DNA of 45,936 bases, taken from Bacteroidota bacterium (GTDB taxonomy: Bacteria > Bacteroidota > Bacteroidia > Bacteroidales > Prolixibacteraceae). Positions within the stretch are counted from its first letter, which is position 1. Each line of letters starts with the position of its first letter. The stretch lies in assembly GCA_030698405.1 (NCBI GenBank), contig JAUYMU010000007.1, forward strand, positions 1-45,936, read 5' to 3'. Below the pieces are notes generated by a model. That model was not told where the DNA came from, made no database searches, and worked only from the letters and a program-made list of their open reading frames with translations. Of the stretch, positions 2,723 through 45,479 are shown piece by piece. The position numbers were made by a program, and so were the translations under genes.

Positions 2723-2757
2723 ATTAAGTTGCACTTAATTAATTAAGCGTATGTTTG
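2723..2757 (+). promoter_or_regulatory. operator and promoter of the XRE-cupin regulator gene
   Basis: A perfect palindrome ATTAAGT-TGC-ACTTAAT spans 2723-2739, overlapping a second one, CTTAATTAATTAAG, at 2734-2747. A -33-like TTG (2729-2731) lies 18 nt before a -7 box TATGTTTG (2750-2757). The palindrome therefore covers the -33 element, as expected for autorepression. A near copy of the first palindrome lies before the downstream operon at 3351. Confidence 0.6.
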
Positions 2758-2776: not shown

Positions 2777-3328
2777 ATGAATCGAATAGGAGAAAGAATA
2801 AAAAAGAAAAGGGAGCTTCTTAACCTTCAACTTAATGAACTTGCTGAAAAAGTTGGCATTAGCTCAAGTGCCCTATCGCAAATTGAAAAATCCAAATCAT
2901 TTCCTTCTATTTTAACCTTAAAATCGATCGCAGAGAACCTTCATACTACAGTTGGTGAGTTGGTTGATGAAAATGAATCATTAGGAAATAACCCGGTTGT
3001 TTGCAAAAAGGATATTAAATACATCGACCAAAACAAATCGGGCACAATTATTTATCTTTTATCGAATCATGATACAAATAAACAGATGGATACTTATTTA
3101 GTACGTTTCGCTAAAACATCTGGTATTGAAGGTTTTTTCACCCATGCGCATGGGCAAATTTTTTGTCATGTGCTTTCGGGCGAAATACGGTTCGATTTGG
3201 AAGGGAAAAGTTACCTTCTCAAACAAGGTGACAATATATACTTTAATGCCAAGGCAACGCATGATGCGATCAATAATCATGATGGCATCAGTGAACTTCT
3301 TTGGATACAATCGCCCCCAAATTTTTAA
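2777..3328 (+). CDS. XRE-family regulator with C-terminal cupin domain
   Basis: 183 residues in two domains. Residues 1-65 form a lambda-repressor-like helix-turn-helix (GERIKKKRELLNLQLNELAEKVGISS, then ALSQIEKSKSFPS). Residues about 105-180 form a small cupin barrel with HAHGQIFCHVLSGEIRF and GDNIYFNAKATHDAIN. Regulators of this build (PuuR/SutR type) bind a small ligand in the cupin and control nearby metabolic genes. Here the neighbours are an aminotransferase, MDH and a PEPCK-like protein, so the ligand may be an amino or dicarboxylic acid; that is inference. It is likely autoregulated through the palindrome at 2723. Confidence 0.85.
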   Translation: MNRIGERIKKKRELLNLQLNELAEKVGISSSALSQIEKSKSFPSILTLKSIAENLHTTVGELVDENESLGNNPVVCKKDIKYIDQNKSGTIIYLLSNHDTNKQMDTYLVRFAKTSGIEGFFTHAHGQIFCHVLSGEIRFDLEGKSYLLKQGDNIYFNAKATHDAINNHDGISELLWIQSPPNF

Positions 3329-3350: not shown

Positions 3351-3393
3351 ATTAAGTAATACTTCATAAATTAAGTTGTAAGGTTTATATTTG
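3351..3393 (+). promoter_or_regulatory. operator and promoter of the aminotransferase-mdh-DUF4914 operon
   Basis: ATTAAGT-AAT-ACTTCAT at 3351-3367 repeats the palindrome found before the regulator gene with one arm mismatch. A further half-site TTAAGT lies at 3371-3376. A -7 box TATATTTG follows at 3386-3393; the -33 element is not clear. The operator lies just upstream of the -7 box, so the XRE-cupin protein probably controls this operon directly. Confidence 0.55.
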
Positions 3394-3456: not shown

Positions 3457-4749
3457 ATGGATAATCAAGCTTTTTCATTAAACAACACCATCGAAAAATT
3501 AAATTCAAATGTTTTAGAAATGCTCTCGGAGCGTGGTAAAAACATATTTTTTCCAAAACTTGGCATTTTAGCACAATCGGCTCAGGCAAAAGGGAAGGCT
3601 ATAAATGCAACAATCGGTGAGGCAGTGGAAGATGATGGAACATCAATGCACCTTCCGGAGTTTGACGCTTTGGTAAATATGCCAACTGCAAATATTTTTC
3701 CTTATGCACCCAGTTTCGGCAAACCTGAATTTCGTGCACTTTGGAAGGAATCTATCTATCGCAAAAATCCCTCACTTAAGGACACTGTGATAAGCAACCC
3801 AATTGCTACCAATGGTCTTACCCATGGCATAAGCATGGCGGGATATCTATTTACAAACGAAGGAGATACGGTTTTGCTTTCGAACCACTATTGGGAAAAC
3901 TACAACCTTATTTTAGAAAACAGTTACGGCGCTAAAGTTTCAACTTTCGAACTTTTTGAAAACGGAGGATTTAACGTATCCGATTTCTCAAAAAAACTCA
4001 ACGAAATTAGAGGAGAAAAAATTATCACGCTACTTAATTTCCCTAACAACCCAGCCGGATACACGCCTTTGATTGCTGAAATTAAAGCCATTGTAGCCGA
4101 AATTAAAAAAGTGGCCGACAAGGGTAAAAAGGTAGTTGTTATTATCGACGATGCTTATTTTGGTCTGGTTTACGAAGAAAATGTTTTTACTGAATCGATT
4201 TTTGTAGAATTGGCCAACCTTTCAGAAAATGTATTGGCTGTAAAACTCGACGGGCCAACAAAAGAAGATTACGTTTGGGGTTTTCGGGTAGGTTTTATTA
4301 CTTATGCGATTAAAGGTGGTAATGCTGAGCTTTATGACGCGCTCGAAAATAAGACAGCGGGAGCGGTGCGTGGAAACATATCAAATATTAGCCAATTGTC
4401 GCAATCGCTATTGTACAAAGTATATTCAGCGCCAACCTACGCGGAGTCGAAAAAGCAGAAATTTGAAATTCTAAAAAATCGTTATCAGATTCTACGTACA
4501 GAACTTTCGAATCCCGATTACGCAGAATATTTCACTCCGCTTCCTTTTAATTCAGGCTATTTTATGTGTATTGAATTGAAAAAGGGATTGGTGGCAGAAG
4601 AAATTCGCAAGCACCTGCTCGAAAATTACAGTACTGGTGTAATTGTGCTTGGCAATGTTATTCGCTTGGCTTTTTCGGCAGTACCTCAATCAAAATTACC
4701 CGAATTGGTTGAAAATATCTACAAGGCTTGTGCTGATTTAGACAAATAG
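3457..4749 (+). CDS. PLP-dependent aspartate-aminotransferase-like enzyme
   Basis: 430 residues, fold-type I class I/II aminotransferase. The visible landmarks are NFPNNPAGYTP (Asn contacting the cofactor), IIDDAYFGL (Asp to the pyridine nitrogen), LDGPTKEDYVWGFRVGF with Lys269 as the likely Schiff-base lysine, and NVIRLAFSA with the arginine that usually binds the substrate carboxylate. First gene of an operon with mdh (31-nt gap) and the DUF4914 gene (9-nt gap). The context suggests it produces or consumes oxaloacetate from aspartate. Its exact substrate cannot be read from sequence, and it is more divergent than ordinary AspC. Confidence 0.75.
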   Translation: MDNQAFSLNNTIEKLNSNVLEMLSERGKNIFFPKLGILAQSAQAKGKAINATIGEAVEDDGTSMHLPEFDALVNMPTANIFPYAPSFGKPEFRALWKESIYRKNPSLKDTVISNPIATNGLTHGISMAGYLFTNEGDTVLLSNHYWENYNLILENSYGAKVSTFELFENGGFNVSDFSKKLNEIRGEKIITLLNFPNNPAGYTPLIAEIKAIVAEIKKVADKGKKVVVIIDDAYFGLVYEENVFTESIFVELANLSENVLAVKLDGPTKEDYVWGFRVGFITYAIKGGNAELYDALENKTAGAVRGNISNISQLSQSLLYKVYSAPTYAESKKQKFEILKNRYQILRTELSNPDYAEYFTPLPFNSGYFMCIELKKGLVAEEIRKHLLENYSTGVIVLGNVIRLAFSAVPQSKLPELVENIYKACADLDK

Positions 4750-4780: not shown

Positions 4781-5719
4781 ATGAAAATTACAGTAGTAGG
4801 AGCAGGAAATGTTGGCGCAACTTGTGCAAATGTAATGGCACAAAAAGAATTGGCCAGTGAAATAGTTTTACTCGACATCAAAGAAGGTTTTGCCGAAGGT
4901 AAAGCTCTTGACATTATGCAAACAGCAACCTTGTTAGGGTTTGATACCCGTGTAACAGGTGTTACTGCCGATTACAGCAAAACCGCTGGTTCGGAAGTTG
5001 TTGTGGTAACCTCTGGCATACCGCGAAAACCAGGAATGACACGTGAAGATTTGATTGGTATAAATGCCGGAATTGTGAAAGATGTTGCACAAAATATTTT
5101 GAAATATTCTCCGAACGCGATCATTGTTGTAATCAGCAATCCGATGGATACCATGACATACTTAACATTGAAAATTACCGGATTGCCTAAAAATCGGGTA
5201 ATAGGGATGGGCGGGATTCTTGACAGCTCACGTTTTAAATGTTATTTGAGTCAGGCATTGAATGTACCTGCAACTGATTTGCAGGGTACAGTAATTGGCG
5301 GACATGGTGATACAACGATGATACCTCTTGCTCGTTTTGCTACTTACAATGGCATTCCGGTAGATTCCTTACTCGATGGAGAAACAGTAAAGAAAGTTAT
5401 TGCCGACACGATGGTTGGAGGCGCAACACTTACCGGTCTTCTCGGAACATCTGCATGGTATGCTCCGGGCGCTGCCGGTGCTGCACTTGTTGAATCCATT
5501 GTTCGCGACGAAAAGAAAGTATTTCCATGTTGTGTGTCGCTTGATGGCGAATATGGCCAAAGCGATATATGTATTGGCGTGCCTGTTGTAATTGGCAAAG
5601 ATGGTATTGAAAAAATTGTTGATTATAAACTAAATACTGAAGAACAAGCTGCTTTTGATAAAAGTGCAGATGCAGTGCGTAATATGAATGGAGTTTTAAA
5701 AGAATTGAATATTTTATAA
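4781..5719 (+). CDS. mdh: malate dehydrogenase
   Basis: 312 residues, the usual length of the LDH-like MDH family, which interconverts malate and oxaloacetate with NAD. The Rossmann start is VVGAGNVGATCA, followed by the acidic NAD-ribose contact LLDIKEG. Next come TSGIPRKPGMTREDL (substrate-loop arginine), ISNPMDTMTYL, GMGGILDSSRFK and the catalytic His in IGGHGDTTMIPL. The Arg in the mobile-loop segment supports MDH over lactate dehydrogenase. It is placed between a transaminase and a PEPCK-like gene, unlike the stand-alone mdh of many relatives. Confidence 0.93.
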   Translation: MKITVVGAGNVGATCANVMAQKELASEIVLLDIKEGFAEGKALDIMQTATLLGFDTRVTGVTADYSKTAGSEVVVVTSGIPRKPGMTREDLIGINAGIVKDVAQNILKYSPNAIIVVISNPMDTMTYLTLKITGLPKNRVIGMGGILDSSRFKCYLSQALNVPATDLQGTVIGGHGDTTMIPLARFATYNGIPVDSLLDGETVKKVIADTMVGGATLTGLLGTSAWYAPGAAGAALVESIVRDEKKVFPCCVSLDGEYGQSDICIGVPVVIGKDGIEKIVDYKLNTEEQAAFDKSADAVRNMNGVLKELNIL

Positions 5720-5728
5720 AATAACAAT

Positions 5729-7651
5729 ATGAGCGATTTATTTAAATCACTTGAAAAAAAGAGGATTAGCCTACCCGATGATGTAATTGTGATTTTAAGT
5801 GGTTGCAAAACATTTAGCACCTTCGATACGGTTAGGCAATTGGCTACTGCGGCAGTTGGTGGAGACAACAATTGTTTTGAGGTAAAATACGATATCCCCG
5901 GAAAAGGTGAAGTTTCTGAAGCGATTATACACAAAGTAACAAACGGAATTTCGGCCAATTATACCGAAGCGTATATGCGGCGGAGAGACCCGGATACGAT
6001 GGCTATTGCAGACAATTTGCCCAGCGACAAGGAACGCTTTTCTGATAAGTTTGGGTACGATTTTGACGTTCTCAGAAAGGAAACCATCCATTGGCTTCAA
6101 TCGCAGGAATTAGCTGTATTCTTTTATTTCGCCGGAAATGATTCTATTGGGTCGGGCGGTATTGCCATTGCACCAGCCAATGCAGGATTTTTTGCAATGG
6201 GACTTTCGATGCTTCAACGCATTATCCCTGTAAAGGATTTACCAGTTGATTTTTCGATTGATTCTGTAATTTATGTTGCGCCTACTTTTCGACACACGCA
6301 CTTCAATGGTAAACAGATCGTTGTTCATAAACGTTCAGAAGGGTTGCACGAAATTTTTTCATACAATTTGTATCCCGGGCCAAGTGCAAAAAAAGGATTG
6401 TACGGAGCTCTTTTAACCAAAGGTGAAAAAGAAGGCTGGATAACTGCGCATTGCTCAACAGTACAGGTTGTTAGCCCGTATGATAATATCACAACTTTTA
6501 TGCACGAAGGTGCAAGTGGTGGCGGTAAGAGCGAAATGCTTCAAAATATCGTGAGGGAACCAAATGGACAGGTACAAATTGGTGAAAATATATTTACAGG
6601 TGAAAAGCGATTAATAAACTTCCCACTGTTCTGTTCTTTCAATCCGGTAACAGATGATATGGCTTTGTGCCATCCAACCATTCAAAGAAACAACGGAAAA
6701 TTGACGGTGCTAGATGCCGAAAATGGTTGGTTTATTCGGGTTGATAGTATTACCGACTATGGCGACGATCCTTTTCTTGAAAAGCTTACCATAAAACCCA
6801 CAGAGCCGCTTTTGTTTCTGAATATAAAATCCAATCCCGATTGCACCGCTCTTATTTGGGATCATACCGAAGATAGCCCCGGAAAAAGTTGCCCAAACCC
6901 AAGGGTAATTGTACCAAGGGATATTGTGCCAAATATTGTGAGTAAACCGGTTACTGTAGATATTAGAAGCTTTGGTGTACGCACTCCGCCTTGCACAAAA
7001 GAAAAACCAACCTATGGCATTGTTGGCTTATTTCATATTTTACCACCGGCATTGGCCTGGTTATGGAGACTTGTTTCTCCAAGAGGTCATGCCAATCCAA
7101 GTATTGTCGACGGTGGTGGAATGGGAAGCGAAGGAGTTGGCTCTTATTGGCCTTTTGCAACCGGAAAAATGGTTACACATGCCAATTTATTGCTCGACCA
7201 AATCATTCAAACACCGCGCATGAGATATACCCTTACGCCTAACCAGCACATTGGTGCATGGAAAGTTGGTTTTAAACCTCAGTTACTAATGCGCGAATAC
7301 CTTACCAGAAGGGGAAATGCAAAACTCAGAAGCGACCAATACCAATATGCCCGTTGTCCATTGTTAGGGTTTGAGTTGAATTATCTTACCATTGAAGGAG
7401 CAAAAATTCCTTCGCGGTTTCTTCAGGTTCACAAACAAGTTGAAGTAGAAACCTCGGGTTATGATGCAGGTGCGGAAATATTGTATGACTTCTTTAAAGC
7501 TGAATTGCCCAAATATTTGACACCAGAATTATCGGCAACAGGCAGGCGAATTATTGAAGCTTGTTTGGCTGGTGCAAGTGTTGAAGATTATTTAGCCATT
7601 ATCCCGATGGATTACCAATATTCATTTTTAACATCCGGCGACAATGAATAA
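5729..7651 (+). CDS. DUF4914-type P-loop protein, PEP-carboxykinase-like
   Basis: 640 residues, which I recognise as the DUF4914 type, a family without assigned function. A Walker-A-like loop GASGGGKS lies at residues 261-268, after TTFMHE. About 40 residues later come FNPVTDDMALCH and then VLDAENGWFIRVDSI. The spacing recalls the P-loop, the acidic metal-binding motif and the following strand of PEP carboxykinases and HPr kinase. No classic ATP-PEPCK signature (GLSGTGKTTL) is present. It sits 9 nt after mdh and an aminotransferase, so conversion of oxaloacetate to PEP is a reasonable but unproven role. The protein has no signal peptide or membrane segment. Confidence 0.6.
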   Translation: MSDLFKSLEKKRISLPDDVIVILSGCKTFSTFDTVRQLATAAVGGDNNCFEVKYDIPGKGEVSEAIIHKVTNGISANYTEAYMRRRDPDTMAIADNLPSDKERFSDKFGYDFDVLRKETIHWLQSQELAVFFYFAGNDSIGSGGIAIAPANAGFFAMGLSMLQRIIPVKDLPVDFSIDSVIYVAPTFRHTHFNGKQIVVHKRSEGLHEIFSYNLYPGPSAKKGLYGALLTKGEKEGWITAHCSTVQVVSPYDNITTFMHEGASGGGKSEMLQNIVREPNGQVQIGENIFTGEKRLINFPLFCSFNPVTDDMALCHPTIQRNNGKLTVLDAENGWFIRVDSITDYGDDPFLEKLTIKPTEPLLFLNIKSNPDCTALIWDHTEDSPGKSCPNPRVIVPRDIVPNIVSKPVTVDIRSFGVRTPPCTKEKPTYGIVGLFHILPPALAWLWRLVSPRGHANPSIVDGGGMGSEGVGSYWPFATGKMVTHANLLLDQIIQTPRMRYTLTPNQHIGAWKVGFKPQLLMREYLTRRGNAKLRSDQYQYARCPLLGFELNYLTIEGAKIPSRFLQVHKQVEVETSGYDAGAEILYDFFKAELPKYLTPELSATGRRIIEACLAGASVEDYLAIIPMDYQYSFLTSGDNE

Positions 7652-7862: not shown

Positions 7863-8930
7863 ATGGAAAAATTTGTAACATCAAACTTGAAATTAGGAAT
7901 AATTGCAGGAGGCCAGCTTGGTAAGATGCTGATACAGGAAGCCAGCAAGTGGGATATTGCTACGTATGTGCTAGACAAAAAAAGCAACCGTCCTGCAGGA
8001 AGCATTGCTTCTGTATTTGTGAAAGGAAATCATCTTGACTTTAATTCAGTTTACCAATTCGGGAAAAAAGTTGATATTTTAACATATGAATTGGAAAATA
8101 TCAATATTGATGCCTTACTAAAACTCAAATCGGAAGGTTTAAAAATTGTCCCTGACCCTGACATCCTTAAGATAATTCAAGATAAAGGTTTGCAGAAGGA
8201 TTTTTATTCCGAAAACAATATACCAACGGTAGCTTATCAGTCATTCAAAAGTAAAGACGAAATCATTGATGCGATTACTACAAATCATCTTAATTTCCCG
8301 TTTGTTCAAAAGCTCCGCAAAGGTGGTTACGATGGAAAAGGTGTTGCCGTAATAAAAGGAGAACAAGACCTGGTGAAGCTTCTTGAAGGAGCATCGATAG
8401 TTGAAGAAAACGTTGAAATATCAAAAGAAATTGCTGTAGTTGCTGCCAGAAATGAAAAGGGCGAGATTAAATGCTTCCCAATTGTAGAAATGGTTTTTGA
8501 CAGTAGTGTCAACATAGTGGAGATGTTGGTTTGTCCATAAAAAATAAGTAAAGAACAATCATTAAAAGCAATTCATATTGCGGAAAGAATCATTGAAAAG
8601 TTAGGGATGGCGGGATTGCTGGCTGTGGAATTCTTTGTGGATGTAACAATACTTAATTTGCCACTTGGCAGCACTCAGATTAAATTGCCGGCAGTTATGC
8701 TCAATCTTTTGGGTGAAAAGGGATACGAAGGCCCTGTCAGATACGAAGGGTTAACCGAAAGTCTGGCTATCGAAGGAGTAAAAATTCACCTGTATGGGAA
8801 AAAAATTACGAAACCTAATCGTAAAATGGGTCATGTAACGGTTGTTTCTACAACTTTAGAAAATGCGTTGGAAAAGGCAGAGCGAGTGAAACATTTAATA
8901 AAGGTAAAATCATGGGGCAAAATATTGTAA
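7863..8930 (+). pseudogene. purK: purK, N5-carboxyaminoimidazole ribonucleotide synthase, inactivated
   Basis: An ATP-grasp enzyme that carboxylates AIR to N5-CAIR in purine synthesis. The N-terminus is intact: LGIIAGGQLGKMLIQ, then PFVQKLRKGGYDGKGV. After VEMLVCP a TAA stop occurs at 8538-8540, and the same frame continues as KISKEQSLKAIHIAERIIEK. A second lesion follows: after LLAVEFFVDV the frame jumps to TILNLPLGST, missing roughly 40 codons. The missing part should hold the metal-binding NExxPRxHNSGH segment that PurK enzymes carry there. The rest, through the C-terminal lobe, is well preserved. Two independent lesions make this a clear and fairly recent pseudogene. It overlaps purE by 19 nt. 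Confidence 0.9.
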
Positions 8931-9412: not shown

Positions 9413-9599
9413 TGACAGACTTTTTTAAAGGCAGAAAACTTGCAGTAGCTACAAAACATGAAAAGGGAAAAGTTATTATTCCTTTAATGGAAAAGGAACT
9501 TGCCGTTGTATGTGTTGTGTCAAAGAATATTAACACAGATAGACTGGGAACTTTTCTGGTGAAGTTGAAAGAAAGGATGACACCATTACTACATTATGA
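9412..9599 (+). pseudogene. truncated, frameshifted DUF6671-like gene
   Basis: The start ATG shares a base with the purE stop. The first ~50 residues (FKGRKLAVATKHEKGKVIIP, then KELAVVCV) look like the N-terminus of DUF6671 proteins, as I recall that family, which are about 280 residues long. At the T-run near 9550 the family-like continuation FSGEVERKDDTITTL is in another frame, which ends at 9599. The uninterrupted frame instead ends at 9615 after an unrelated tail. Both the frameshift and the missing three quarters of the protein say it is dead. Confidence 0.7.
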
Positions 9600-9616
9600 A
9601 AAAAGAATTGATTAGT

Positions 9617-10786
9617 ATGCAAAGATATTTAACTGTTATTTCAGCCTTTTTTATTATGCTCTGTGTGGGTAGCGTTTACGCATGGAGTATGATATCTTCG
9701 GAGTTGATAAATAATTTTGATTTTTCATCAGTCCAATCTCAACTTGTTTTCGGAACAATTATTGCAATTTTTCCAGTTACAATGATTTTTGCAGGAAAGT
9801 TTGAGAAACTGCTTGGTGTGCGCACTCTTACTCTTCTTTCAGCGTTATTTTTTAGTGTTGGGTACATTGTTTCAGGATTATCAGATGGGAACTTCTACAT
9901 TATCCTTGCAGGAATTGGAGTTTTTGGAGGTATAGGCACAGGTTTGGGTTATTTTGTTTCAATTACAACTCCAGCAAAGTGGTTTACAGAAAAAAAAGGC
10001 CTTGTTACGGGAATAACGGTCGCTGGCTTTGGATTGGCTTCTTTCATTTTTTCAATGGTAATCGAAAATTTATTGATATCAGGAAAAAGTATTTTAGACC
10101 TATTTGTTATTATTGGCATTGTGTATGGAATTATAATACTGTTTTTTTCAAATTTTATCAAAGTTCCACTTACCGATAAGACTGTTGTAATTACAAAACA
10201 GACTTTCAAAGTAGATGGAAAATTCATTAAGCTATTTTTTGGTATTTTTTTCGGAACATTTGCGGGTCTTCTTATTATTGGTAGTTTAAAACTTATTGGC
10301 AGCGTGCATAATATTAGTAACCATAGTTTGGTGATTGGGGTGTCGGTATTTGCTATTGCCAATTTCTCAGGACGTCTGTTTTTTGGGGCTTTAAGTGATT
10401 ATATAGGCGCAAGCATATGTATTTTTCTGGCTCTTCTACTTCAGGCAGTATCCATTTTCTTTTTGGGCTATCTTGATCTCAATTCTGTAACATATATTGC
10501 GCTGTCGTTTTTAATAGGTTTTGGTTTCGGGGGAAATTTTGTGCTATTTGCAAAAGAAACTGCACAGGTTTTTGGCATTCATGATTTTGGAATTATATAT
10601 CCATATGTTTTTTTAGGTTATGCAATTGCAGGAATTTTTGGACCACTAACAGGAGGTTTTCTTTACGACCGTTTTAATAACTATGATTTTGCATCTTATA
10701 CAGCCTCGGTAATGAGTTTGATTGGTGGATTAATCTTTTTGGTGAATTATATTGTTTCAAAAATAACATCAAACAATAAATCATGA
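9617..10786 (+). CDS. MFS transporter, OFA (oxalate/formate antiporter) type
   Basis: About 389 residues with roughly 12 hydrophobic segments. The start MQRYLTVISAFFIMLCVGSV followed by YAWSM is typical of the OFA family, as are GGIGTGLGYFVSITTPAKWF and GFGFGGNFVLFAKE. The substrate is unknown; members carry small organic anions. I prefer the ATG at 9617 because it begins right before the first membrane segment. An in-frame ATG at 9596 overlapping the DUF6671 remnant (ATGA) would add seven residues. Four bases overlap with the next gene. Confidence 0.8.
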   Translation: MQRYLTVISAFFIMLCVGSVYAWSMISSELINNFDFSSVQSQLVFGTIIAIFPVTMIFAGKFEKLLGVRTLTLLSALFFSVGYIVSGLSDGNFYIILAGIGVFGGIGTGLGYFVSITTPAKWFTEKKGLVTGITVAGFGLASFIFSMVIENLLISGKSILDLFVIIGIVYGIIILFFSNFIKVPLTDKTVVITKQTFKVDGKFIKLFFGIFFGTFAGLLIIGSLKLIGSVHNISNHSLVIGVSVFAIANFSGRLFFGALSDYIGASICIFLALLLQAVSIFFLGYLDLNSVTYIALSFLIGFGFGGNFVLFAKETAQVFGIHDFGIIYPYVFLGYAIAGIFGPLTGGFLYDRFNNYDFASYTASVMSLIGGLIFLVNYIVSKITSNNKS

Positions 10787-37420: not shown

Positions 37421-37451
37421 ATTTGGGTGTTAAAATTAAATGCACCCAAAT
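37421..37451 (+). promoter_or_regulatory. hairpin over the integrase start
   Basis: Perfect 9-bp arms ATTTGGGTG (37421-37429) and CACCCAAAT (37443-37451) enclose the first possible start codon at 37440, and the second ATG (37452) follows directly. If formed in mRNA it would restrict integrase translation or decide which start is used. Confidence 0.45.
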
Positions 37452-38741
37452 ATGAATATCAAACGTAGCATTATTTTCACCCTTGAAAAAAGAAAGAAAA
37501 ATAATGTGCTGGTCACCGACAATGTTCCCATTCGCATGCGGGTTATCTACAGCGGAACCCGTACAGATTTCAGTACCGGATACAGGATAGATGAATCTAA
37601 ATGGGAAGCAGACAAACAACGGGTAAAAAACGGTTGTACAAATAAACTAAAACAAAGCTCATCTGAAATTAATTCAGATTTATTAAAATATTACACCGAT
37701 ATCCAGAATATTTTTAAGGAGTTCGAAGTAAGGGATATTACTCCTATCCCGGAACAACTTAAAACAACGTTTGCTAAGAGAAACAAAGCAAGTAATTCTG
37801 AAGAAGTGGAAGCAGAAAAGCCCACCGTTTCTTTTTTGAAAATATTCGAGAAATTTCTAAAAGAATGCGGCACGCAAAACAACTGGACAGATGCTACCTA
37901 TAAAAAATTCGCAGCATTAAAAACTCATTTGACTAAATTCAATTCAAACCTTACATTCGAGGAGTTGAACGAATCCGGGTTAAGTGAATTTGTATATTAT
38001 CTTCGGGATAAGAAAGATATGAGAAACAGTTCTATTGGCAAACAAATTAGCTTACTCAAATGGTTTCTTCGCTGGGGACTAAAGAAAGGCCATCATAATA
38101 ACAATGCCATTGAATCATTCAATCCCAAACTGAAAAATGCACAAAAGAAAGTAATCTTCCTAACTTGGGGAGAACTAAATAAACTTCGTGATTATCAAAT
38201 TCCGGAAAGTAAACAGTATTTGGAACGGGTTCGGGATGTGTTTTTGTTTACCTGCTTCACTGGTTTAAGGTATTCTGATGTGTATAACCTGAAAACAAGT
38301 GATATTAAGGATAATCACATAGAAATAACAACTATCAAAACGGCTGATAGCCTGATTATTGAATTGAACAACCACAGTAAATCCATATTGGAAAAGTACA
38401 AAGAGGTTCATTTTGAGAATAATAAAGTCCTACCTGTAATTACTAACCAGAAAATGAACGACTACCTGAAAGAGTTGGCCGAGTTGGCCGAAATAAATGA
38501 GCCTGTAGGCGAAACTTATTATAAAGGAAATCGGCGGATAGATGAAGTTACTCCAAAGTATGCACTTCTGGGTACTCATGCCGGACGAAGGACATTTATT
38601 TGCAATGCATTATCTTTGGGTATCCTACCACAGGTTGTAATGAAATGGACGGGACACAGCGACTACAAAGCTATGAAACCCTATATTGATATAGCTGATG
38701 ATATTAAAGCCAGTGCAATGGAGAAGTTTAACCAGTTATAG
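37440..38741 (+). CDS. tyrosine recombinase / integrase
   Basis: 433 residues from the ATG at 37440; the ATG at 37452 (MNIKRSIIF) is equally possible. An N-terminal arm-binding domain (IPIRMRVIYSG-like, about 20-60) is followed by a SAM-like core-binding domain (about 130-230). The catalytic domain has Arg277 (CFTGLRYSD), His380-x-x-Arg383 (LGTHAGRRT), His406 (WTGHSD) and a likely nucleophile Tyr415 (MKPYIDI). It integrates and excises the element at the tRNA-like att site just upstream. Confidence 0.92.
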   Translation: MHPNMNIKRSIIFTLEKRKKNNVLVTDNVPIRMRVIYSGTRTDFSTGYRIDESKWEADKQRVKNGCTNKLKQSSSEINSDLLKYYTDIQNIFKEFEVRDITPIPEQLKTTFAKRNKASNSEEVEAEKPTVSFLKIFEKFLKECGTQNNWTDATYKKFAALKTHLTKFNSNLTFEELNESGLSEFVYYLRDKKDMRNSSIGKQISLLKWFLRWGLKKGHHNNNAIESFNPKLKNAQKKVIFLTWGELNKLRDYQIPESKQYLERVRDVFLFTCFTGLRYSDVYNLKTSDIKDNHIEITTIKTADSLIIELNNHSKSILEKYKEVHFENNKVLPVITNQKMNDYLKELAELAEINEPVGETYYKGNRRIDEVTPKYALLGTHAGRRTFICNALSLGILPQVVMKWTGHSDYKAMKPYIDIADDIKASAMEKFNQL

Positions 38742-38801
38742 GTAAATTCAAAACATTTATCAAATCCAACTATCTTTGAAGCATAATTTTAATAACAAGG
38801 C

Positions 38802-40205
38802 ATGTTAACAGCAGAAGAAATAAAGTCCATAGCTAAAAGCGGTGAAGGATACAACGCCGATTTTAAACTAAAAGTACCGGGTAAAGTTCGGGAACTTTCG
38901 GAGGAGGTTTGTGCTTTTGCCAATAGCGAAGGAGGATTTTTACTGATTGGGATAGATGATAAGAACCAGATTACAGGAACAGAAATTGACAACCCGAAAC
39001 GTTCTGCTATTCAGGATTCTATAAGAGACATATCTCCAGCTATCCATGTGGATATTTATTCTGTTGATATAGATGGTAAAACCGTATGGGTGATTGAAAT
39101 CCCTTCGGGGAAAGATAAACCTTATGTACTTTCCGGGGCGATCTATGTAAGGGAAAGTGCCAATTCCCAAAAGCTTACGACCGCCGAAGAAATCAGGAGT
39201 TTTTTTCAAAGCAGTAACCGTATTTACTTCGATTCTGTTCCTTGTATTAAATTTGATTTTGAAAAGGAACTTGATAATGATACATTTAATCTATTCCGAA
39301 CCGAATCCGGCATTTCTGGAAACATATCCACACATCAGATACTGAATAATTTGCAGGTGTTTGATGATTCAGGTAAGATTAAAAATGGTGGAGTATTATT
39401 CTTTGGCAAACAACCTGAAATCACATTTCATCAGGCGGTTACCCGCTGTGTCCGGTTCAAGGGAAAAACCAAGGTACATATCATTGATGACAAAACCTAT
39501 GGAGGCCCATTGTATCAACAATACCATCAGTCAGAAACTTGGATAAAAGATAAGCTTGAAGTAGCCTATATCATAGAGGGTATGGGGCCACGTAAAGAAG
39601 TTTGGGAGATTCCCCTTACCGTTTTTAAAGAAGCGATTATTAACGCTCTTTCACACAGAGATTATTACGAGCAAGGCGCCGTTACGATGGTGGAAGTTTA
39701 TGATGACCGGGTGGAGATTTCCAATCCGGGGGGGTTACTGATTGGTGTGAAAAATGATTTTGGAAAGAAAAGCATGACCCGTAATCCTCTCATTTTCGGT
39801 TTATTTACTCGTATGAGTTTGGTGGAACAGGTTGCATCCGGCATTCCCCGAATGCGTAAAGCAATGAAAGAAGCAGAACTTCCAGAACCAACGTTTACAA
39901 CTGATGGTGGTTTCTTTACTGTTGAATTTAAACGTCCTCAAAAGAATGACACTATAAATGACATTGTAAATTCAAAGAGTGGCACTACAAATGGCACTAC
40001 AAATGGCACTATAAATTTGGAAAGTCCTATTGAAGAAATAGTTTTAAAACTAATAACCAAGCAAGAGGGATTGTCAGCCCGAAAAATCTCTAAACTGATA
40101 GACAAAAGTTTGAGAACAACCATGCGGTATTTGGACGATCTTAAAAAATCTGAGAAAATAGAATTCCGAGGGGCATTGAAAAACGGAGGTTATTATTTGA
40201 AATAA
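38802..40205 (+). CDS. AlbA_2 (Schlafen-type) ATP-binding DNA-binding regulator
   Basis: 467 residues in three parts. An AlbA_2 domain at about 1-130 has NADFKLKVPGKVRELSEEVC, FANSEGGFLLIGIDD and YVRESANSQKLT. A GHKL-type ATPase segment at about 255-375 has FKEAIINALSHRDYYEQG, VEISNPGG and SGIPRMRKAM. A C-terminal winged helix is at about 405-465 (LSARKISKLIDKSLRTTMRY). Four-residue repeats form the linker between the last two. Such proteins are frequent on mobile elements, as regulators or defence factors; the role here is unknown. Confidence 0.82.
   Translation: MLTAEEIKSIAKSGEGYNADFKLKVPGKVRELSEEVCAFANSEGGFLLIGIDDKNQITGTEIDNPKRSAIQDSIRDISPAIHVDIYSVDIDGKTVWVIEIPSGKDKPYVLSGAIYVRESANSQKLTTAEEIRSFFQSSNRIYFDSVPCIKFDFEKELDNDTFNLFRTESGISGNISTHQILNNLQVFDDSGKIKNGGVLFFGKQPEITFHQAVTRCVRFKGKTKVHIIDDKTYGGPLYQQYHQSETWIKDKLEVAYIIEGMGPRKEVWEIPLTVFKEAIINALSHRDYYEQGAVTMVEVYDDRVEISNPGGLLIGVKNDFGKKSMTRNPLIFGLFTRMSLVEQVASGIPRMRKAMKEAELPEPTFTTDGGFFTVEFKRPQKNDTINDIVNSKSGTTNGTTNGTINLESPIEEIVLKLITKQEGLSARKISKLIDKSLRTTMRYLDDLKKSEKIEFRGALKNGGYYLK
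39948..40016 (+). repeat. in-frame 12-nt tandem repeat inside the AlbA_2 gene
   Basis: Units GACACTATAAAT, GACATTGTAAAT, a 9-nt break, then GGCACTACAAAT twice and GGCACTATAAAT. They encode DTIN, DIVN, GTTN, GTTN and GTIN. The unit is a multiple of three, so slippage would change linker length without breaking the frame. Confidence 0.8.
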
Positions 40206-40214
40206 GAGTCAGGC

Positions 40215-41222
40215 ATGGAACAACTTCAAAACATTCAATCAGTTATTGAATATTTCTCAGATATATATTCATCCTGGCAGGAGATTAACCGACTGCTCAA
40301 AAATAAGATTCAGAATCCTAATTCTGGAGATCTGTCTTCTCAAGAATTCTTATTCAAATTCTATAATAAAAACAAGGAGCCCAATGTTCTCCAAACTAAT
40401 CTTTTAAATCTTATTCTGGCCAGTTCTGCCGAAAAAGCCGGAGTTATTACGACCCCATTGCTTGCGCTGTTAAGGAAGAACATATTTCTTTTTGAAAGGA
40501 ATAAAGAAATACTGGAAAATCTGAATTCTTACAAGATGATCGAGCAATCCCTGCTGTATTATTATGACAAAAGAGTTTCATTGGAAAAGGATTTGGAACT
40601 GATAAAGACATACCCTTATCCCACAGAAGTAGAAAGACAGATATTAATCGATGAGACGCGTAAAGAATTAAGCGAATTATCCGGCGAAGAAGAAAAAGAA
40701 CGCAACAGGATTGTTCCCTTTTGTCAAAACTTCTTTCCTGACATCTACCAGTTGAGCAGGGAACTTGTGGTATTTATCAATGCTTTTGTTCCTGAAAAGG
40801 TCATTACTTCCGAGAGCGTTTCTCAATCAGTAGGGCAAAATATTTCTCCTGGAAATTCAGCAAAGAGTGACCCGCTGGGTATATTGGATGATCCGAATAG
40901 GATCTTCAGGACGAGAATGTTTGAGAAGTTTCTGGTATTGGAAAGAAAGCTGATTACAGATAAATATTTGAAAGAAGAAAGTCAGAATAAAGAACTGCAT
41001 TGGATTTCCACCCATGAAAACGGGAAACCGGATATAAAAAGATTGGTTACATTTTTGGCTGGAATGCTTGACAACAATCATTTTCTCCCCAACAAAGACC
41101 CCAAAATAAAAGCGTTTTTTGAATCCCGGTATCATATCGTCATCGGGCAGAACTTTGAAAGGAAAAGACGTGTTCCACTTCTAAATGAATACAAAATAGT
41201 ATTTCATAACTATCCGTTTTAG
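40215..41222 (+). CDS. element-borne protein, weakly RteC-like
   Basis: 335 residues, 9 nt after the AlbA_2 gene and probably cotranscribed. It is mostly helical: a long heptad-like region (about 95-200, LEKDLELIKTYPYPTEVERQ, RKELSELSGEEEKERN), then a polar linker. The C-terminal part (about 265-335) has ELHWISTHENGKPDIKRLVT, FLAGMLDNNHFLP and FFESRYHIVIGQNFERKRRV. It faintly resembles the winged-helix end of RteC, a regulator of Bacteroides conjugative transposons. The assignment is weak; it may be another domain of unknown function. Confidence 0.45.
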   Translation: MEQLQNIQSVIEYFSDIYSSWQEINRLLKNKIQNPNSGDLSSQEFLFKFYNKNKEPNVLQTNLLNLILASSAEKAGVITTPLLALLRKNIFLFERNKEILENLNSYKMIEQSLLYYYDKRVSLEKDLELIKTYPYPTEVERQILIDETRKELSELSGEEEKERNRIVPFCQNFFPDIYQLSRELVVFINAFVPEKVITSESVSQSVGQNISPGNSAKSDPLGILDDPNRIFRTRMFEKFLVLERKLITDKYLKEESQNKELHWISTHENGKPDIKRLVTFLAGMLDNNHFLPNKDPKIKAFFESRYHIVIGQNFERKRRVPLLNEYKIVFHNYPF

Positions 41223-41357
41223 CGAACATTCAACGGTCGTAATACGAAACCATATCACAAATAACATTTGTATATCAGTGACTATCTGCAAGTAGCATTT
41301 TCAACAACTACGATTCACCGACACTCAAAAAAAACCAAATTAATATTGCGGTATACT

Positions 41358-41378
41358 TGATAGACCAGCTGGCTATCA
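41358..41378. promoter_or_regulatory. near-palindrome before the DUF3853 gene
   Basis: TGATAG and CTATCA flank CCAGCTGG with one unpaired position, giving a 21-bp near-perfect inverted repeat 29 nt before the ATG. A second small one, ACAAAT-AAC-ATTTGT, lies further upstream in the 184-nt gap. These are candidate operators or Xis-type binding sites. Confidence 0.4.
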
Positions 41379-41406
41379 ATATTGTATCACGTAAAATTAA
41401 TTTATC

Positions 41407-41709
41407 ATGAATGTTAAAGAATTGAAAGAAAAGTCGATTTGGCAAATGACTGGCGAGGAATTTTTATTCCTGCAGCAGAACTCGGAGCAGAAACAGGTAC
41501 AATCGATTACTTTATCTGAAACCCCAAAGAAGTATGTATATGGAATTGGCGGTATTGCCCGGTTATTCGGGTGCAGTATTCCAACAGCCAACCGCATTAA
41601 GCAAAGCGGGAAGATCGATAAAGCCATTACTCAGATAGGCCGGAAAATCATTGTCGAGGCCGAACTGGCATTGGAACTTGCAGGGCGCAAATCGGGCGGT
41701 AGAAAATAA
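41407..41709 (+). CDS. DUF3853-type, excisionase-like DNA-binding protein
   Basis: 100 residues. The C-terminal half is a MerR/Xis-like helix-turn-helix: GIGGIARLFGCSIPTANRIK, QSGKIDKAITQIGRKIIVEA. It matches the DUF3853 proteins typical of Bacteroidota mobilisable elements, placed just before the helicase and primase genes. A role in excision or in controlling the replication genes is likely. It ends 5 nt before the VapE gene. Confidence 0.75.
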   Translation: MNVKELKEKSIWQMTGEEFLFLQQNSEQKQVQSITLSETPKKYVYGIGGIARLFGCSIPTANRIKQSGKIDKAITQIGRKIIVEAELALELAGRKSGGRK

Positions 41710-41713
41710 AGCA

Positions 41714-42943
41714 ATGGCGAAGGAGCGAAAATCCCAATCACAGGGGCAAGCCACGTCATCAGAGGGTAAACAATCCAAAAATGAAGTCATTGAGTCCTAT
41801 CTTAATCGAAATTATGCCTTCAGGTACAACACCGTGAAGTGCAAACCCGAATATAAATCAATGGAAAGCTGTATGCCTTTTACTCCCGTGACCCGGTTTG
41901 TTCTCAACTCCTTTAAACGAGAATTGGATAAAAATATGGGATTAAGCACATCTGCTGAAAATATCCGGGGAATATTGGAAAGTGATTTTTCTCCAAAGAT
42001 TAATCCAGTCCAGGATTATTTCAAAAATCTGCCTCGCATGAATCCTGAGATTAACCGTTTCATAGAAACATTGGCCGAAACGGCACAGGTAACCAATCCT
42101 AAAAAATGGTTGTTGTATCTGACCAAATGGCTTGTAGGGGTAGTTGCAAATGCCCTGAATGAGTTTGGTTGTCAAAATCATTTGTGCCTAGTACTTACAG
42201 GAGAACAAGGACGGTTCAAAACGACCTGGTTAGATAATATTTGTCCTTTGAGCTTAAGAAGTTATCTGTTTACCGGGAAGATTGATCCTCAAAGTAAAGA
42301 CGTACTTACACTGATTGCTGAGTATCTCTTTATCAACATTGACGACCAGTTAAAAGCCTTGAACAAGCGGGATGAAAATGAGTTGAAGAATCTGATCACC
42401 ACCCCGGCAGTGAAATATCGTCGTCCCTACGATGTCTATATAGAAGAATATCCGCATCTGGCAAGTTTTATGGCTTCGGTAAACGGTAATGATTTTTTGA
42501 CTGATCCAACCGGTTCTCGCAGGTTCTTACCTTTTGAAGTGGTGAAAATGGACTTGAAAGCAGCTCAGGAAATCAACATGGACAATGTGTTTTCCGAAAT
42601 ACTATTCATTTATGAGAGCGGTTTCCGGTATTGGTTTGATGATCCCGAAATTGCAGAATTGCACCAATATAGCAGTGGATTCCATGTTCAGACAGCTGAA
42701 TACGAAATGTTGGTACAGGGATTCGAGAAGCCGCACAAAGATGCAACAGACTTTATGACAACTACACAAATACTAAACTACCTGAGAGCCTATTGCTCAC
42801 TCAATTTATCAGAGAAAAGAATGGGTGAAGCGCTTAGAAAGACAGGATTTGAACGAAGGTCAAAAAGGATAGGTAACAACCCGGTATATGCATGGTCTGT
42901 AAAGAAAATTACACCGAACCCTTTTATTTCTTCTAATTTGTAA
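41714..42943 (+). CDS. VapE-like helicase/ATPase
   Basis: 409 residues from the ATG at 41714 (MAKERKSQSQ); an upstream ATG inside DUF3853 is rejected. The superfamily-3-like ATPase core shows Walker A GEQGRFKTT (G163 to T171, Lys169) and Walker B FINIDDQ. FMASVNGNDFLTDPTGSRRF is the sensor segment typical of the virulence-associated E family. A C-terminal winged-helix part (TTTQILNYLRAYCSLNLSEK) follows. It probably unwinds element DNA together with the primase encoded after the iteron-like cluster. Confidence 0.85.
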   Translation: MAKERKSQSQGQATSSEGKQSKNEVIESYLNRNYAFRYNTVKCKPEYKSMESCMPFTPVTRFVLNSFKRELDKNMGLSTSAENIRGILESDFSPKINPVQDYFKNLPRMNPEINRFIETLAETAQVTNPKKWLLYLTKWLVGVVANALNEFGCQNHLCLVLTGEQGRFKTTWLDNICPLSLRSYLFTGKIDPQSKDVLTLIAEYLFINIDDQLKALNKRDENELKNLITTPAVKYRRPYDVYIEEYPHLASFMASVNGNDFLTDPTGSRRFLPFEVVKMDLKAAQEINMDNVFSEILFIYESGFRYWFDDPEIAELHQYSSGFHVQTAEYEMLVQGFEKPHKDATDFMTTTQILNYLRAYCSLNLSEKRMGEALRKTGFERRSKRIGNNPVYAWSVKKITPNPFISSNL

Positions 42944-42944
42944 T

Positions 42945-43137
42945 TACTACACCACTACATAGTATTACAATCCATTGAAGGAAAGAAAATTACAATGTAG
43001 CAAGATCCGTTTTGTCCATCTTACTTCACATTACTACATCTACTACAAAGAATAATGTAGTAGTTACTACACAATTTAAGCACTACATACTTTAATGCTT
43101 GACAAATAAGCGTTTGCAAGCAAAAGAAAATGTAGTA
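42945..43137. repeat. iteron-like TACTACA/TGTAGTA cluster, possible replication origin
   Basis: The 220-nt gap between the helicase and primase genes holds at least nine copies of (T/C)ACTACA(T) or its complement. Forward copies are at 42945, 42953, 43032, 43041, 43065 and 43081. Reverse copies (ATGTAG, then ATGTAGTA) are at 42995, 43055 and 43130. A GCTTG/CAAGC inverted repeat lies near 43097-43121. The region is AT-rich, as a melting zone would be. Position and density suggest an origin for excised circular replication or a binding array for an element regulator. Confidence 0.6.
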
Positions 43138-43163
43138 AGTAAAATCATTAAAAAGTAAAAAAG

Positions 43164-44096
43164 ATGAAATCCATAGAAGCGAATGCCATCAGCATCAAAC
43201 AATATCTGTCTGAAAATGGAATTCAATCGTCAAAAGACAGAGGATATTACGGAATTTATCACAGCCCTTTCCGGGAAGATCATAATGCCAGTTTAAAAGT
43301 TGATTATAATCAAAATGTATGGCACGACTTCGGAACCGGAGAAGGCGGAGGACTTATCGACCTGGTGATGAGAATGGATCATTGTTCCCTGCATGAAGCC
43401 ATCACAACGTTGGAACGAAAATACAGTCGTGCGGACGTAAGTACTTACCAAAGTGCCAACACACCAACAAGTAATTTTTCTTTTCACCGGAAGAATGCGG
43501 ATTCGGATCTGAAATCAACGAAACCGTCAATGACGATAATGAACGTTCAACCAATCAGCAATCCGGCATTGATTGAGTATCTACATGAACGCCGGATCAG
43601 TATAGACATTGCCCGGATTCATTGCAGCGAAGTTCATTATTCAGTGAATGATAAGCCTTATTATGCTATTGGGTTCCAAAATGACAAAGGTGGATATGAA
43701 CTGCGGAGTAAATATTTTAAGGGATGCAATTCGAAAGACATTACATCAATAAAGCGAAATAAAGACCATTGCATGCTGTTCGAAGGTTTTATGGATTACT
43801 TGAGTTTTCTTACCATAAAAAAACTGCAAAATTCTCCTGTGGATGTAATCGTTTTGAATTCATTGGCAAACCTGCAAAAAGTGAAAAATACCCTTGAATC
43901 ATATAAAAGTATTTCGGCATTTCTTGATAATGACCTAGCCGGGAAAAGAGCTGTTCAGGAATTGGAATCAATCTATAAAGATGTCATTGACCAATCATTT
44001 CTCTATTCCAAACATAAAGACTTAAACGAATACCTGTGTCATAAACAACAGATACAATATCAGGATTTAAAGAAAAGATCAGGATTAAAGCCATAG
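43164..44096 (+). CDS. toprim-domain primase
   Basis: 310 residues. The N-terminal domain (about 1-90) has the shape of a DnaG/CHC2 zinc-finger domain (YYGIYHSPFREDHNASLKVD, then WHDFGTGEGGGLIDLVMRM), but the zinc-binding cysteines are not present. A toprim domain follows at about 205-300, with CMLFEGFMDYLSFL (acidic Glu), VIVLNSLAN and ISAFLDNDLAGK (DxD-like Asp pair). It would prime element replication together with the VapE-like helicase. It starts 27 nt after the last iteron-like copy. Confidence 0.85.
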   Translation: MKSIEANAISIKQYLSENGIQSSKDRGYYGIYHSPFREDHNASLKVDYNQNVWHDFGTGEGGGLIDLVMRMDHCSLHEAITTLERKYSRADVSTYQSANTPTSNFSFHRKNADSDLKSTKPSMTIMNVQPISNPALIEYLHERRISIDIARIHCSEVHYSVNDKPYYAIGFQNDKGGYELRSKYFKGCNSKDITSIKRNKDHCMLFEGFMDYLSFLTIKKLQNSPVDVIVLNSLANLQKVKNTLESYKSISAFLDNDLAGKRAVQELESIYKDVIDQSFLYSKHKDLNEYLCHKQQIQYQDLKKRSGLKP

Positions 44097-44141
44097 CCTG
44101 ACTGAAGTAGAATACAGTGTTTTTAAGGGTAGCAAGTTTAT

Positions 44142-44160
44142 GTTTTGGTTATACCAAAAC
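44142..44160. other. candidate oriT hairpin upstream of mobC
   Basis: A perfect inverted repeat GTTTTGGT-TAT-ACCAAAAC lies 32 nt before mobC, in the only gap of the mobilisation module. Relaxosome nick regions are usually placed here, with a hairpin beside the nick site. An operator for MobC is the alternative. Confidence 0.5.
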
Positions 44161-44191
44161 TCTCGTTTCATCCCACTGGTCTAATTAATAA

Positions 44192-44563
44192 ATGTTCAGA
44201 AACGTGAAAATGAAAACAGAAAACAAAGGAGGCAGACCGGCAAAAGTGGCTGGTCAGAAAAAAGGGTATTTCATCGGCGTCAAGATGGATACCCATGAGT
44301 ATTACACTTTAAAAGCCAAATCCCGTGAAGCGGGGATTTCCATTAGTGAATGTGTCCGCCAATCAGTTTTGGGCAGCGTAATTAAACAACGACATACCAC
44401 CGAAATGTATGACTTGATCCGGAAACTTTGTGGTATGGCCAATAATCTGAACCAGATTGCCCGAAAAGCCAATGCCCAAGGTTACCATAATGCCCAGAGT
44501 GAAAATATTCAGCTAGCGAGCAGCATTCGAAAACTGGTAAATCATCTACGCCATGATAGCTAA
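44192..44563 (+). CDS. mobC: MobC-type relaxosome accessory protein
   Basis: 123 residues; the ATG at 44210 (MKTENKGGRP) is an alternative start. The family pattern is GRPAKV, then VKMDTHEYYTLKAKSREAGI and SISECVRQSVLG (RHH-like DNA-binding), then LIRKLCGMANNLNQIARKAN. It binds oriT and helps the relaxase nick. It overlaps the relaxase gene by 11 nt. Confidence 0.85.
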   Translation: MFRNVKMKTENKGGRPAKVAGQKKGYFIGVKMDTHEYYTLKAKSREAGISISECVRQSVLGSVIKQRHTTEMYDLIRKLCGMANNLNQIARKANAQGYHNAQSENIQLASSIRKLVNHLRHDS

Positions 44564-45479
44564 AATTGTCAAGGGTCAAGGATTCCGGGGAGTGGTGAAT
44601 TACATCCTGAATCAGGAAAAGAAAGCTGAAATTCTGGACAGTGATGGAGTTTTGCTTGATGATCCTGAAGCGATCATTGAAAGCTTTAACTTCCAAACTG
44701 AACTAAATCCACGGATATTGAAACCTGTGGGACATATCTCACTGAATTTCTCAGCACAGGATCAGGAAAAACTTTCCAGCGAATTCATGGTTAAAATCGC
44801 ACGGGATTATATGGCACAAATGGGAATTACCGATACTCAATATTTGATTGCCAGACATTACGACAAGGAACATCCACATATTCACTTGATCTTTAACCGG
44901 ATAGATTACAACGGGAATACAATTTCTGACCGGAATGATCGCTTTCGAAGTGGAAAGATTTGCAAAGAGCTGACCCGCGAATATGAGCTATACTTTGCCC
45001 TGGGGAAGGAAAATGTAAAGCAACATCGTTTGCTTGAGCCGGACAAAACCAAATACGAAATTTACAATTCGTTAAAAGACATTATACCTAAATCCCAGAA
45101 TTGGGAACAAATTATTCGGGGCCTTAAACATCAGAATATTGGGGTGACATTCAAGTACAAAGGCAAATCGGATGAAATTCAGGGAGTCATTTTCAATAAG
45201 AATGGTTACACCTTCAATGGCTCAAAGGTGGACCGTCAGTTTAGCTACTCCAAGATTAACCAGCAACTGCAATTGAAAGAACAGAAATCTATACAAGCTG
45301 AATTTCAAGAGAATGCAATAACCGGGTTTCAAAACCAGCAACTGTTTTCAGGAAATGTAATCAATGATCTTTTGTACCAGTTGCAAAAACCGTCAAATTA
45401 CAACAAGGACAATGATGAAACAGCAGCAATTCGGAAATACAGGAAGAAAAAGAAAAAGGATTTTAGATTAAGACTTTAG
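44553..45479 (+). CDS. mobB: relaxase / mobilisation nuclease, MobB type
   Basis: 308 residues, MOBP-like relaxase domain. The N-terminus MIAKIVKGQGFRGVVNYILN carries the usual early aromatic nucleophile candidate, Tyr17. The metal-binding triad H107-P-H109-I-H111-LIFNR is perfect. ITDTQYLIARHYDKEHPHIH and SDRNDRFRSGKICKELTREY are typical. It nicks oriT and leads the DNA strand into the recipient. The C-terminus is short and basic (KYRKKKKKDF), so it has no attached helicase or primase. Confidence 0.9.
   Translation: MIAKIVKGQGFRGVVNYILNQEKKAEILDSDGVLLDDPEAIIESFNFQTELNPRILKPVGHISLNFSAQDQEKLSSEFMVKIARDYMAQMGITDTQYLIARHYDKEHPHIHLIFNRIDYNGNTISDRNDRFRSGKICKELTREYELYFALGKENVKQHRLLEPDKTKYEIYNSLKDIIPKSQNWEQIIRGLKHQNIGVTFKYKGKSDEIQGVIFNKNGYTFNGSKVDRQFSYSKINQQLQLKEQKSIQAEFQENAITGFQNQQLFSGNVINDLLYQLQKPSNYNKDNDETAAIRKYRKKKKKDFRLRL

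Follow-up and report, generated by a model that had tools for sequence, protein, structure and literature searches.

A DUF4914 protein with a predicted PEPCK fold as a candidate third class of PEP carboxykinase

PEP carboxykinases (PEPCKs) stand where sugar and acid metabolism meet and control the flow between glycolysis and the citric acid cycle. In the PEPCK mechanism, metal-bound oxaloacetate is decarboxylated and the enolpyruvate is phosphorylated, or the reverse takes place. A cysteine in the P-loop is the hallmark of the GTP-dependent enzymes, the PPi-dependent type (PEP carboxytransphosphorylase) is a protein of ~1,100 aa, and HPr kinase/phosphorylase possesses a P-loop core related to that of PEPCK within a far smaller protein. 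A review of these enzymes, as far as its available text goes, distinguishes ATP, GTP and PPi as the only donor types and gives CO2, not bicarbonate, as the PEPCK substrate (PMC8100219).

Here we describe a protein of the DUF4914 family that probably represents a third, unrecognised PEPCK class beside the ATP and GTP types, judging from its predicted fold and its conserved residues. The gene lies in a stretch of 45,936 nucleotides (hereafter the window) from a Bacteroidota bacterium of the Prolixibacteraceae (assembly GCA_030698405.1, contig JAUYMU010000007.1). No mention of DUF4914, of its Pfam entry PF16260, or of IPR032583, which we take to be its InterPro accession, was found in a literature search limited to open-licence papers.

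Predicted fold and active-site counterparts

The DUF4914 gene is a complete open frame of 640 aa on the + strand (5729..7651). Its product matches PF16260 at 963.4 bits, against a curated cut-off of 25.7, over profile positions 1-612 of 612. No Pfam family besides DUF4914 was matched at E<=1, neither PF01293 (ATP-PEPCK) nor PF00821 (GTP-PEPCK) among them, and no NCBIfam model was matched at E<=0.1. By sequence, the protein is outside both the ATP- and the GTP-PEPCK families.

A different picture of the relationship is given by an AlphaFold2 model built from 47 DUF4914 sequences with templates unused (pLDDT 91.3, pTM 0.90). Foldseek comparison of this model with the PDB yielded 118 matches at E<=0.001, the best 50 of which were PEPCKs without exception (50/50; ATP and GTP types; E 6e-23 to 1e-20; identity 12-16%). 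Specifically, the top ATP-type match was 1aq2 (E 5.7e-23, TMt 0.74, 15% identity) and the top GTP-type match was the mitochondrial enzyme 2fah_A (E 6.7e-23, TMt 0.63, TMq 0.60). In the model, an N-terminal domain and the PEPCK P-loop domain extend across the entire DUF4914 chain. The first-pass annotation, which had proposed a new kind of PEPCK, had made the PEPCK nucleotide-binding core in a predicted structure a check on that proposal; the core was found, within a fold that is predicted to be PEPCK throughout. The longest inner dip in pLDDT suggests both the position and the role of a probable mobile lid at residues ~453-479 (7085..7165, +), with values of 71 and 73 for blocks within 451-470; the P-loop block 261-270 has a value of 68. 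On the basis of this model, homology of DUF4914 to PEPCK and a shared fold are near certain. The sequence link is faint, and the case for homology is carried by the fold and not by profile scores.

With respect to sequence, the DUF4914 family profile gave no significant match among PDB chains (best E 0.25, to an unrelated protein; one PEPCK at E 1.2). A profile search of 395 genomes of the host's phylum produced 23 matches to DUF4914, 13 of them above cut-off, and the ten below cut-off were eight ATP-PEPCKs (profile positions 97-264) and two LytTR-type regulators (positions 283-356) with similar scores. The latter, one recognised by profile scan (L019) and one judged from its sequence (L025), are taken as chance matches, and because they score alike, the ATP-PEPCK matches alone prove little. 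The PEPCK_ATP profile gave a below-cut-off match of 18.3 bits in genome G428, with coordinates that fit its DUF4914 gene. We also observed frames of ~300 aa in three genomes (G404, G408 and G418) that match PEPCK_ATP positions 186-246 below cut-off; as a guess, these could be HPr kinases.

Eight of the nine proteins in our first ATP-PEPCK set had been chosen for matching DUF4914, and for this reason the profile-profile comparison was repeated with nine unpicked proteins. Against these DUF4914 scored 42.4 (E 2.5e-4), and with gap-free columns this score compares with a best of 27.6 among 60 column-shuffled decoys; E was 5.7e-7 and 1.6e-5 for the sets in which some proteins had been picked. The link to the GTP-PEPCK profile was weak (E 0.001-0.002) and was lost with gap-free columns (E 0.19). 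Comparison of ATP-PEPCK with GTP-PEPCK, two known relatives, gave E 3.1e-5 to 1.9e-4 and was likewise lost with gap-free columns. For the gap-rich GTP alignment, shuffled decoys were sometimes absurdly high (at least 1 of 40 in one run; in a further run on two versions, 0 of 40 and 3 of 40, respectively). Judged from these profile-profile scores, the distance of DUF4914 from the ATP type is about that between the ATP and GTP types, and DUF4914 is linked less strongly to the GTP type.

Residues were mapped using hhalign with realignment against the ATP-PEPCK (L002) and GTP-PEPCK (L003) of the host, and conservation was taken from 59 aligned DUF4914 proteins. The three stretches that had given rise to the PEPCK proposal, namely the GASGGGKS loop (residues 261-268), the acidic motif in NPVTDDMALC (305-314) and the AENGWFIRVD strand (330-339), are all present. 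The residues tested in them (262-264, 266-268; D309, D310; E331) are invariant in 59/59 proteins, and the resemblance is therefore more than a matter of chance. The P-loop (6509..6532, +) aligns with GLSGTGKT of the ATP type and FPSACGKT of the GTP type, and S263, G264, G266, K267 and S268 do not vary among the 59 proteins.

In terms of metal binding, H241 (6449..6451, +) is the counterpart of the Mn-ligand histidine and falls on H223 of the ATP type and H239 of the GTP type. The segment Y215-P-G-P-S-A-K221-K222 (6371..6394, +) supplies counterparts of the substrate tyrosine and two lysines, one of which is presumably an Mn ligand in PEPCK, and D309-D310 (6653..6658, +), the kinase-2/Mn aspartate counterpart, lies on D285/D286 of the GTP type. 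On the substrate side, R84-R85-R86-D87 (5978..5989, +) corresponds to the arginine region that binds oxaloacetate/CO2, with R86 on R59 of the ATP-PEPCK after realignment; we take R65 of E. coli PEPCK to be the arginine matched to this region. N390-P-R392 (6896..6904, +) is the counterpart of the Asn-x-Arg substrate motif, on N376/R378 of the GTP type. Each of these five features is invariant in 59/59 proteins.

Against the host ATP-PEPCK, residues R86, Y215, K221, K222, H241, S263 and K267 fall on R59, Y198, K203, K204, H223, S241 and K245, respectively. Against the host GTP-PEPCK, Y215, K221, K222, H241, S263 and K267 fall on Y210, K218, K219, H239, S261 and K265, with Y215 and both lysines shifted by one residue if realignment is omitted. 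The ATP-type counterparts of D309/D310 (in GDDEHGW) and of R392 were placed by eye only, as the automatic alignments leave them unpaired. The metal Lys, His and Asp, the P-loop and the substrate Arg and Tyr are present, the Asp and the Asn-x-Arg motif being seen via the GTP type only and Arg86 via the ATP type only, and the mapped residues presumably correspond to those that act in catalysis in the PEPCKs of E. coli and rat. Moreover, Q506, W511, F515 and Q518, in a loop at or near the PEPCK base-binding loop where the alignment is unreliable, are kept in 59/59 proteins. In the realigned form of this same unreliable region, F515 falls beside the adenine-site Arg of ATP-PEPCK, the adenine-site Arg and Thr being, we assume, R449 and T455 of the E. 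coli enzyme. The conservation of this loop would favour a nucleotide donor.

Gene context and an operator-like site

In the window, the DUF4914 gene is preceded on the same + strand by a class I/II aminotransferase gene (AAT; 3457..4749; PRK08637, NF006388 at 535.2 bits), the first of the unit, and by a malate dehydrogenase gene (MDH; 4781..5719; NF004863 at 404.7 bits, TIGR01763 at 373.1 bits). The first-pass annotation had described DUF4914 as cotranscribed with MDH and an aspartate-aminotransferase-like gene. The common strand and the short gaps (31 bp from AAT to MDH, 9 bp from MDH to DUF4914) are as observed, and from this spacing the three genes probably form one transcription unit. We infer that the aminotransferase, whose NCBIfam title is 'hypothetical protein', is specific for aspartate/oxaloacetate. 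Elsewhere in the window, purK is interrupted (7863-8930), with a frame that stops at 8540 and ~100 bp missing later relative to an intact 366-aa copy in locus L026, reflecting either decay or an assembly error. Transporters of the oxalate/formate-lactate group of the MFS recur near DUF4914 (window 9596-10786, L087:11894-13045, L067:10133-11350). At 37440-45479, recombinase-like, primase-like and relaxase-like frames were recognised by eye and point to a mobilisable element integrated there.

A scan of GTDB species returned at least 581 stretches encoding DUF4914 relatives, of which the best 80 were kept as loci, several of them short at contig ends, and neighbouring genes were identified using local BLAST at E<=1e-8. 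Within these best 80 of at least 581, MDH adjoins DUF4914 in two loci (L026 and L062) and AAT is present in one (L026), some loci being short, and the AAT-MDH-DUF4914 operon was rejected as a general argument. For the operon conservation to which the first-pass annotation had looked, the outcome is mixed: the gene order is rare, but both loci add oxaloacetate enzymes, and the operator-like site described below is shared. In L026 the order is AAT, citrate synthase, MDH and DUF4914, and in L062 it is the end of citrate synthase, two frames, a biotin carrier, an oxaloacetate decarboxylase/PycB alpha gene, MDH, DUF4914, PurE, Sua5 and carbonic anhydrase. The L062 DUF4914 protein belongs to another clade (67% to that of the window, ~90% to those of L069 and L015); despite this, the MDH of L062 is 93% identical to the window MDH. 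The DUF4914 slot behind MDH (L062:4409-7346) may have arisen by in-place replacement or by independent assembly. The regulator discussed below and its site occur, together with a HAD phosphatase-like gene, AAT and the beginning of citrate synthase, at two other places in the L062 genome (L148 and L149, both stopping at contig ends inside citrate synthase).

Among the same best 80 of at least 581 loci, a carbonic anhydrase gene lies 3′ of DUF4914 on the same strand in five (L029, L035, L042, L062 and L076). In 11 of the loci, the DUF4914 strand also carries a PurE-like gene at a distance of no more than 1.4 kb. Acid transporters are also found beside DUF4914, namely an OFA/lactate-type MFS protein encoded 6 bp downstream in L087 and GntP permeases in L059 and L071. 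Most other scanned genes adjacent to DUF4914 had no evident link to it.

The commonest neighbour found was a gene for an HTH-cupin protein, in 31 of the 80 loci (best 80 of at least 581); it is on the opposite strand in two of the 31, and in L082 it is distant and only ~25% identical. In the window, this PuuR-like regulator (HTH_3 + Cupin_2) is encoded at 2777..3328 (+). A new 26-bp operator-like site with the consensus ATTAAGTANTACTTNATNNATTAAGT was derived from eight regulator loci and the window, with 22 scored positions. The copy before AAT-MDH-DUF4914, ATTAAGTAATACTTCATAAATTAAGT (3351..3376, +), agrees at 22/22 positions but helped define the consensus, and a copy before the regulator gene (2723..2748, +) agrees at 19/22. 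At two mismatches or fewer, the host genome contains two sites, both in the window (2723 and 3351).

At 18 or more of the 22 positions, the site occurs 44 times in 24 of the 80 loci (best 80 of at least 581). All but one of these occurrences (43/44) are within 200 bp of regulator ends or of the DUF4914 start, several loci having a site before the regulator gene only. The 44th stands before AAT-citrate synthase-MDH-DUF4914 in L026, where no HTH-cupin gene is present within the locus stretch covered. Loci with the regulator carry the site in 23 of 31 cases versus 1 of 49 without it (Fisher 2.4e-12), and when the eight defining loci are left out, 15 of 23 regulator loci carry it (Fisher 5.9e-9). 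The Markov control contained no site and the shuffle one. In 11 chosen whole genomes searched at two mismatches or fewer, 18 sites were found, whereas the pattern in reversed form gave two. Each of the site-bearing stretches (18/18) carries at least one of three genes, namely the regulator, DUF4914 and the aminotransferase. The operator-like site ties AAT-MDH-DUF4914 to the HTH-cupin regulator, and we infer that the HTH-cupin protein binds it. Among the best 80 of at least 581 loci, several of them short, 49 are without the HTH-cupin gene and 56 without the site.

Distribution and proposed function

The tree of 59 DUF4914 proteins includes Bacteroidota, Chloroflexota, Planctomycetota, Spirochaetota, Hydrogenedentota and others, among which metagenome bins may be misassigned. 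The family is patchy: 13 of 395 genomes of the host's phylum have it above cut-off, and in the phylum to which Anaerolinea belongs the count is 4 of 301 genomes; viral contigs contained no DUF4914 relatives. A genome-wide check for a normal pckA, as suggested at the outset, found both PEPCK types in the host, together with PEPC. The two PEPCK genes lie close together and divergent on contig C137 (~76045-79588), a pairing also seen in genome G395. Because PEPCKs of both types and PEPC are present, no pathway step needs completing in the host, and the earlier suggestion that an oxaloacetate-PEP reaction would complete the pathway does not hold.

Among 48 chosen DUF4914 genomes, ATP-PEPCK was found above cut-off in 27, GTP-PEPCK in 19, both in three and at least one type in 43, and PEPC (PF00311) in 26. 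Neither PEPCK was found in five of the 48, and the draft bins G420 and G428, both among these five, were also without PEPC. Because a canonical PEPCK is present in 43/48 genomes, there is usually no gap for DUF4914 to fill. Replacement of canonical PEPCK by DUF4914 was rejected for the host's phylum, where 13 of 13 above-cut-off genomes have ATP- or GTP-PEPCK (background in the 395 genomes: ATP-PEPCK 270, GTP-PEPCK 139).

The same coexistence would accord with a catalytically dead or regulatory PEPCK paralogue, but none of the mapped metal, P-loop and substrate residues varies among the 59 proteins, which come from several phyla, and we consider such a role highly improbable. It would also suit a PEPCK-fold kinase that reuses PEPCK chemistry on a different acid, such as another 2-oxo or hydroxy acid, a reading to which the adjoining OFA/lactate-type and GntP transporters lend some weight and for which the ligand of the cupin domain leaves room. 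Such a kinase is nonetheless unlikely in our estimation, given that the residues matching the Arg, Tyr and Asn-x-Arg with which PEPCK binds oxaloacetate do not vary in 59/59 proteins and that the clusters with MDH in the window, L026 and L062 contain oxaloacetate enzymes.

Taken together, the computed case for PEPCK comprises the fold, the invariant catalytic counterparts, the site linked to the HTH-cupin gene and the oxaloacetate/CO2 enzymes encoded nearby in a few loci. The fold, the catalytic residues and the oxaloacetate-handling neighbours suggest that DUF4914 is probably an overlooked version of PEPCK, and the original candidate is supported as a candidate, with a predicted fold that is PEPCK end to end. 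In the proposed mechanism, K222, H241 and D310 would bind the divalent metal that holds the substrate, oxaloacetate would be bound by R86, Y215, N390 and R392, and the P-loop (K267/S268) together with D309 would hold the metal-phosphoryl donor, which could be ATP, GTP or PPi. The lid would then close, oxaloacetate would lose CO2 and PEP would be formed by phosphoryl transfer to enolpyruvate, or the reaction would run the other way. The likelier physiological direction may be PEP + CO2 to oxaloacetate, with the product supplied to MDH, citrate synthase and the aminotransferase, a guess made because of the neighbours and because the hosts are believed to be mostly anaerobes. DUF4914 would act as a separately regulated isoenzyme and not as a replacement for canonical PEPCK, and regulation of its own is in keeping with an additional isoenzyme at the oxaloacetate node.

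Of 14 control genomes, only that of Thermotoga maritima contained DUF4914, and this genome gave no match to PEPCK_ATP, PEPCK_GTP, PEPcase or PEPcase_2, which speaks for the third-class reading. In a 2012 gene survey, the pepck and mdh entries for T. maritima are empty (Table 3), and Thermotoga is given a PPi-dependent PFK and a PPDK (PMC3561251). These two enzymes would accord with PPi as the donor, as would the tendency of PPi-PEPCK bearers, in the review text available, to have ATP or GTP PEPCK as well (PMC8100219). PPi-type PEPCK would then have arisen a second time in DUF4914; this reading is contained in the third-class proposal, and the likelihoods of the two overlap. We regard a PPi donor as rather improbable, because Q506, W511, F515 and Q518 appear to resemble a base pocket, in a region where the alignment is unreliable. 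The most far-reaching form of the proposal is possible but doubtful: here DUF4914 would combine a new donor class (PPi or unusual) with its own oxaloacetate-node regulator and would supply the PEP-oxaloacetate enzyme that is missing in Thermotoga and in certain other anaerobes without any known PEPCK or PEPC. If the third-class assignment is correct, a further PEPCK family in several phyla, annotated only as 'unknown', would change many bacterial metabolic reconstructions, including that of Thermotoga maritima.

Comparison with known PEPCK types

HPr kinase/phosphorylase is absent among the best 50 of the 118 fold matches of DUF4914. PPi-type PEPCK resembles DUF4914 in that it mostly coexists with ATP or GTP PEPCK, as far as the available review text describes it (PMC8100219). 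GTP-PEPCK (PF00821) has the same fold over the whole chain (2fah_A), a similar length and aligned DD and N-x-R motifs, but its profile score is weak and its P-loop cysteine corresponds to G265, a glycine that is invariant in two DUF4914 alignments. In comparison, the ATP-PEPCK (PF01293) of the host is encoded by a separate gene, has 531 residues versus 640 and carries the P-loop GLSGTGKT where DUF4914 has GASGGGKS, and yet the ATP type shares the whole predicted fold (1aq2), with the R, Y, KK, H and P-loop S/K residues aligned.
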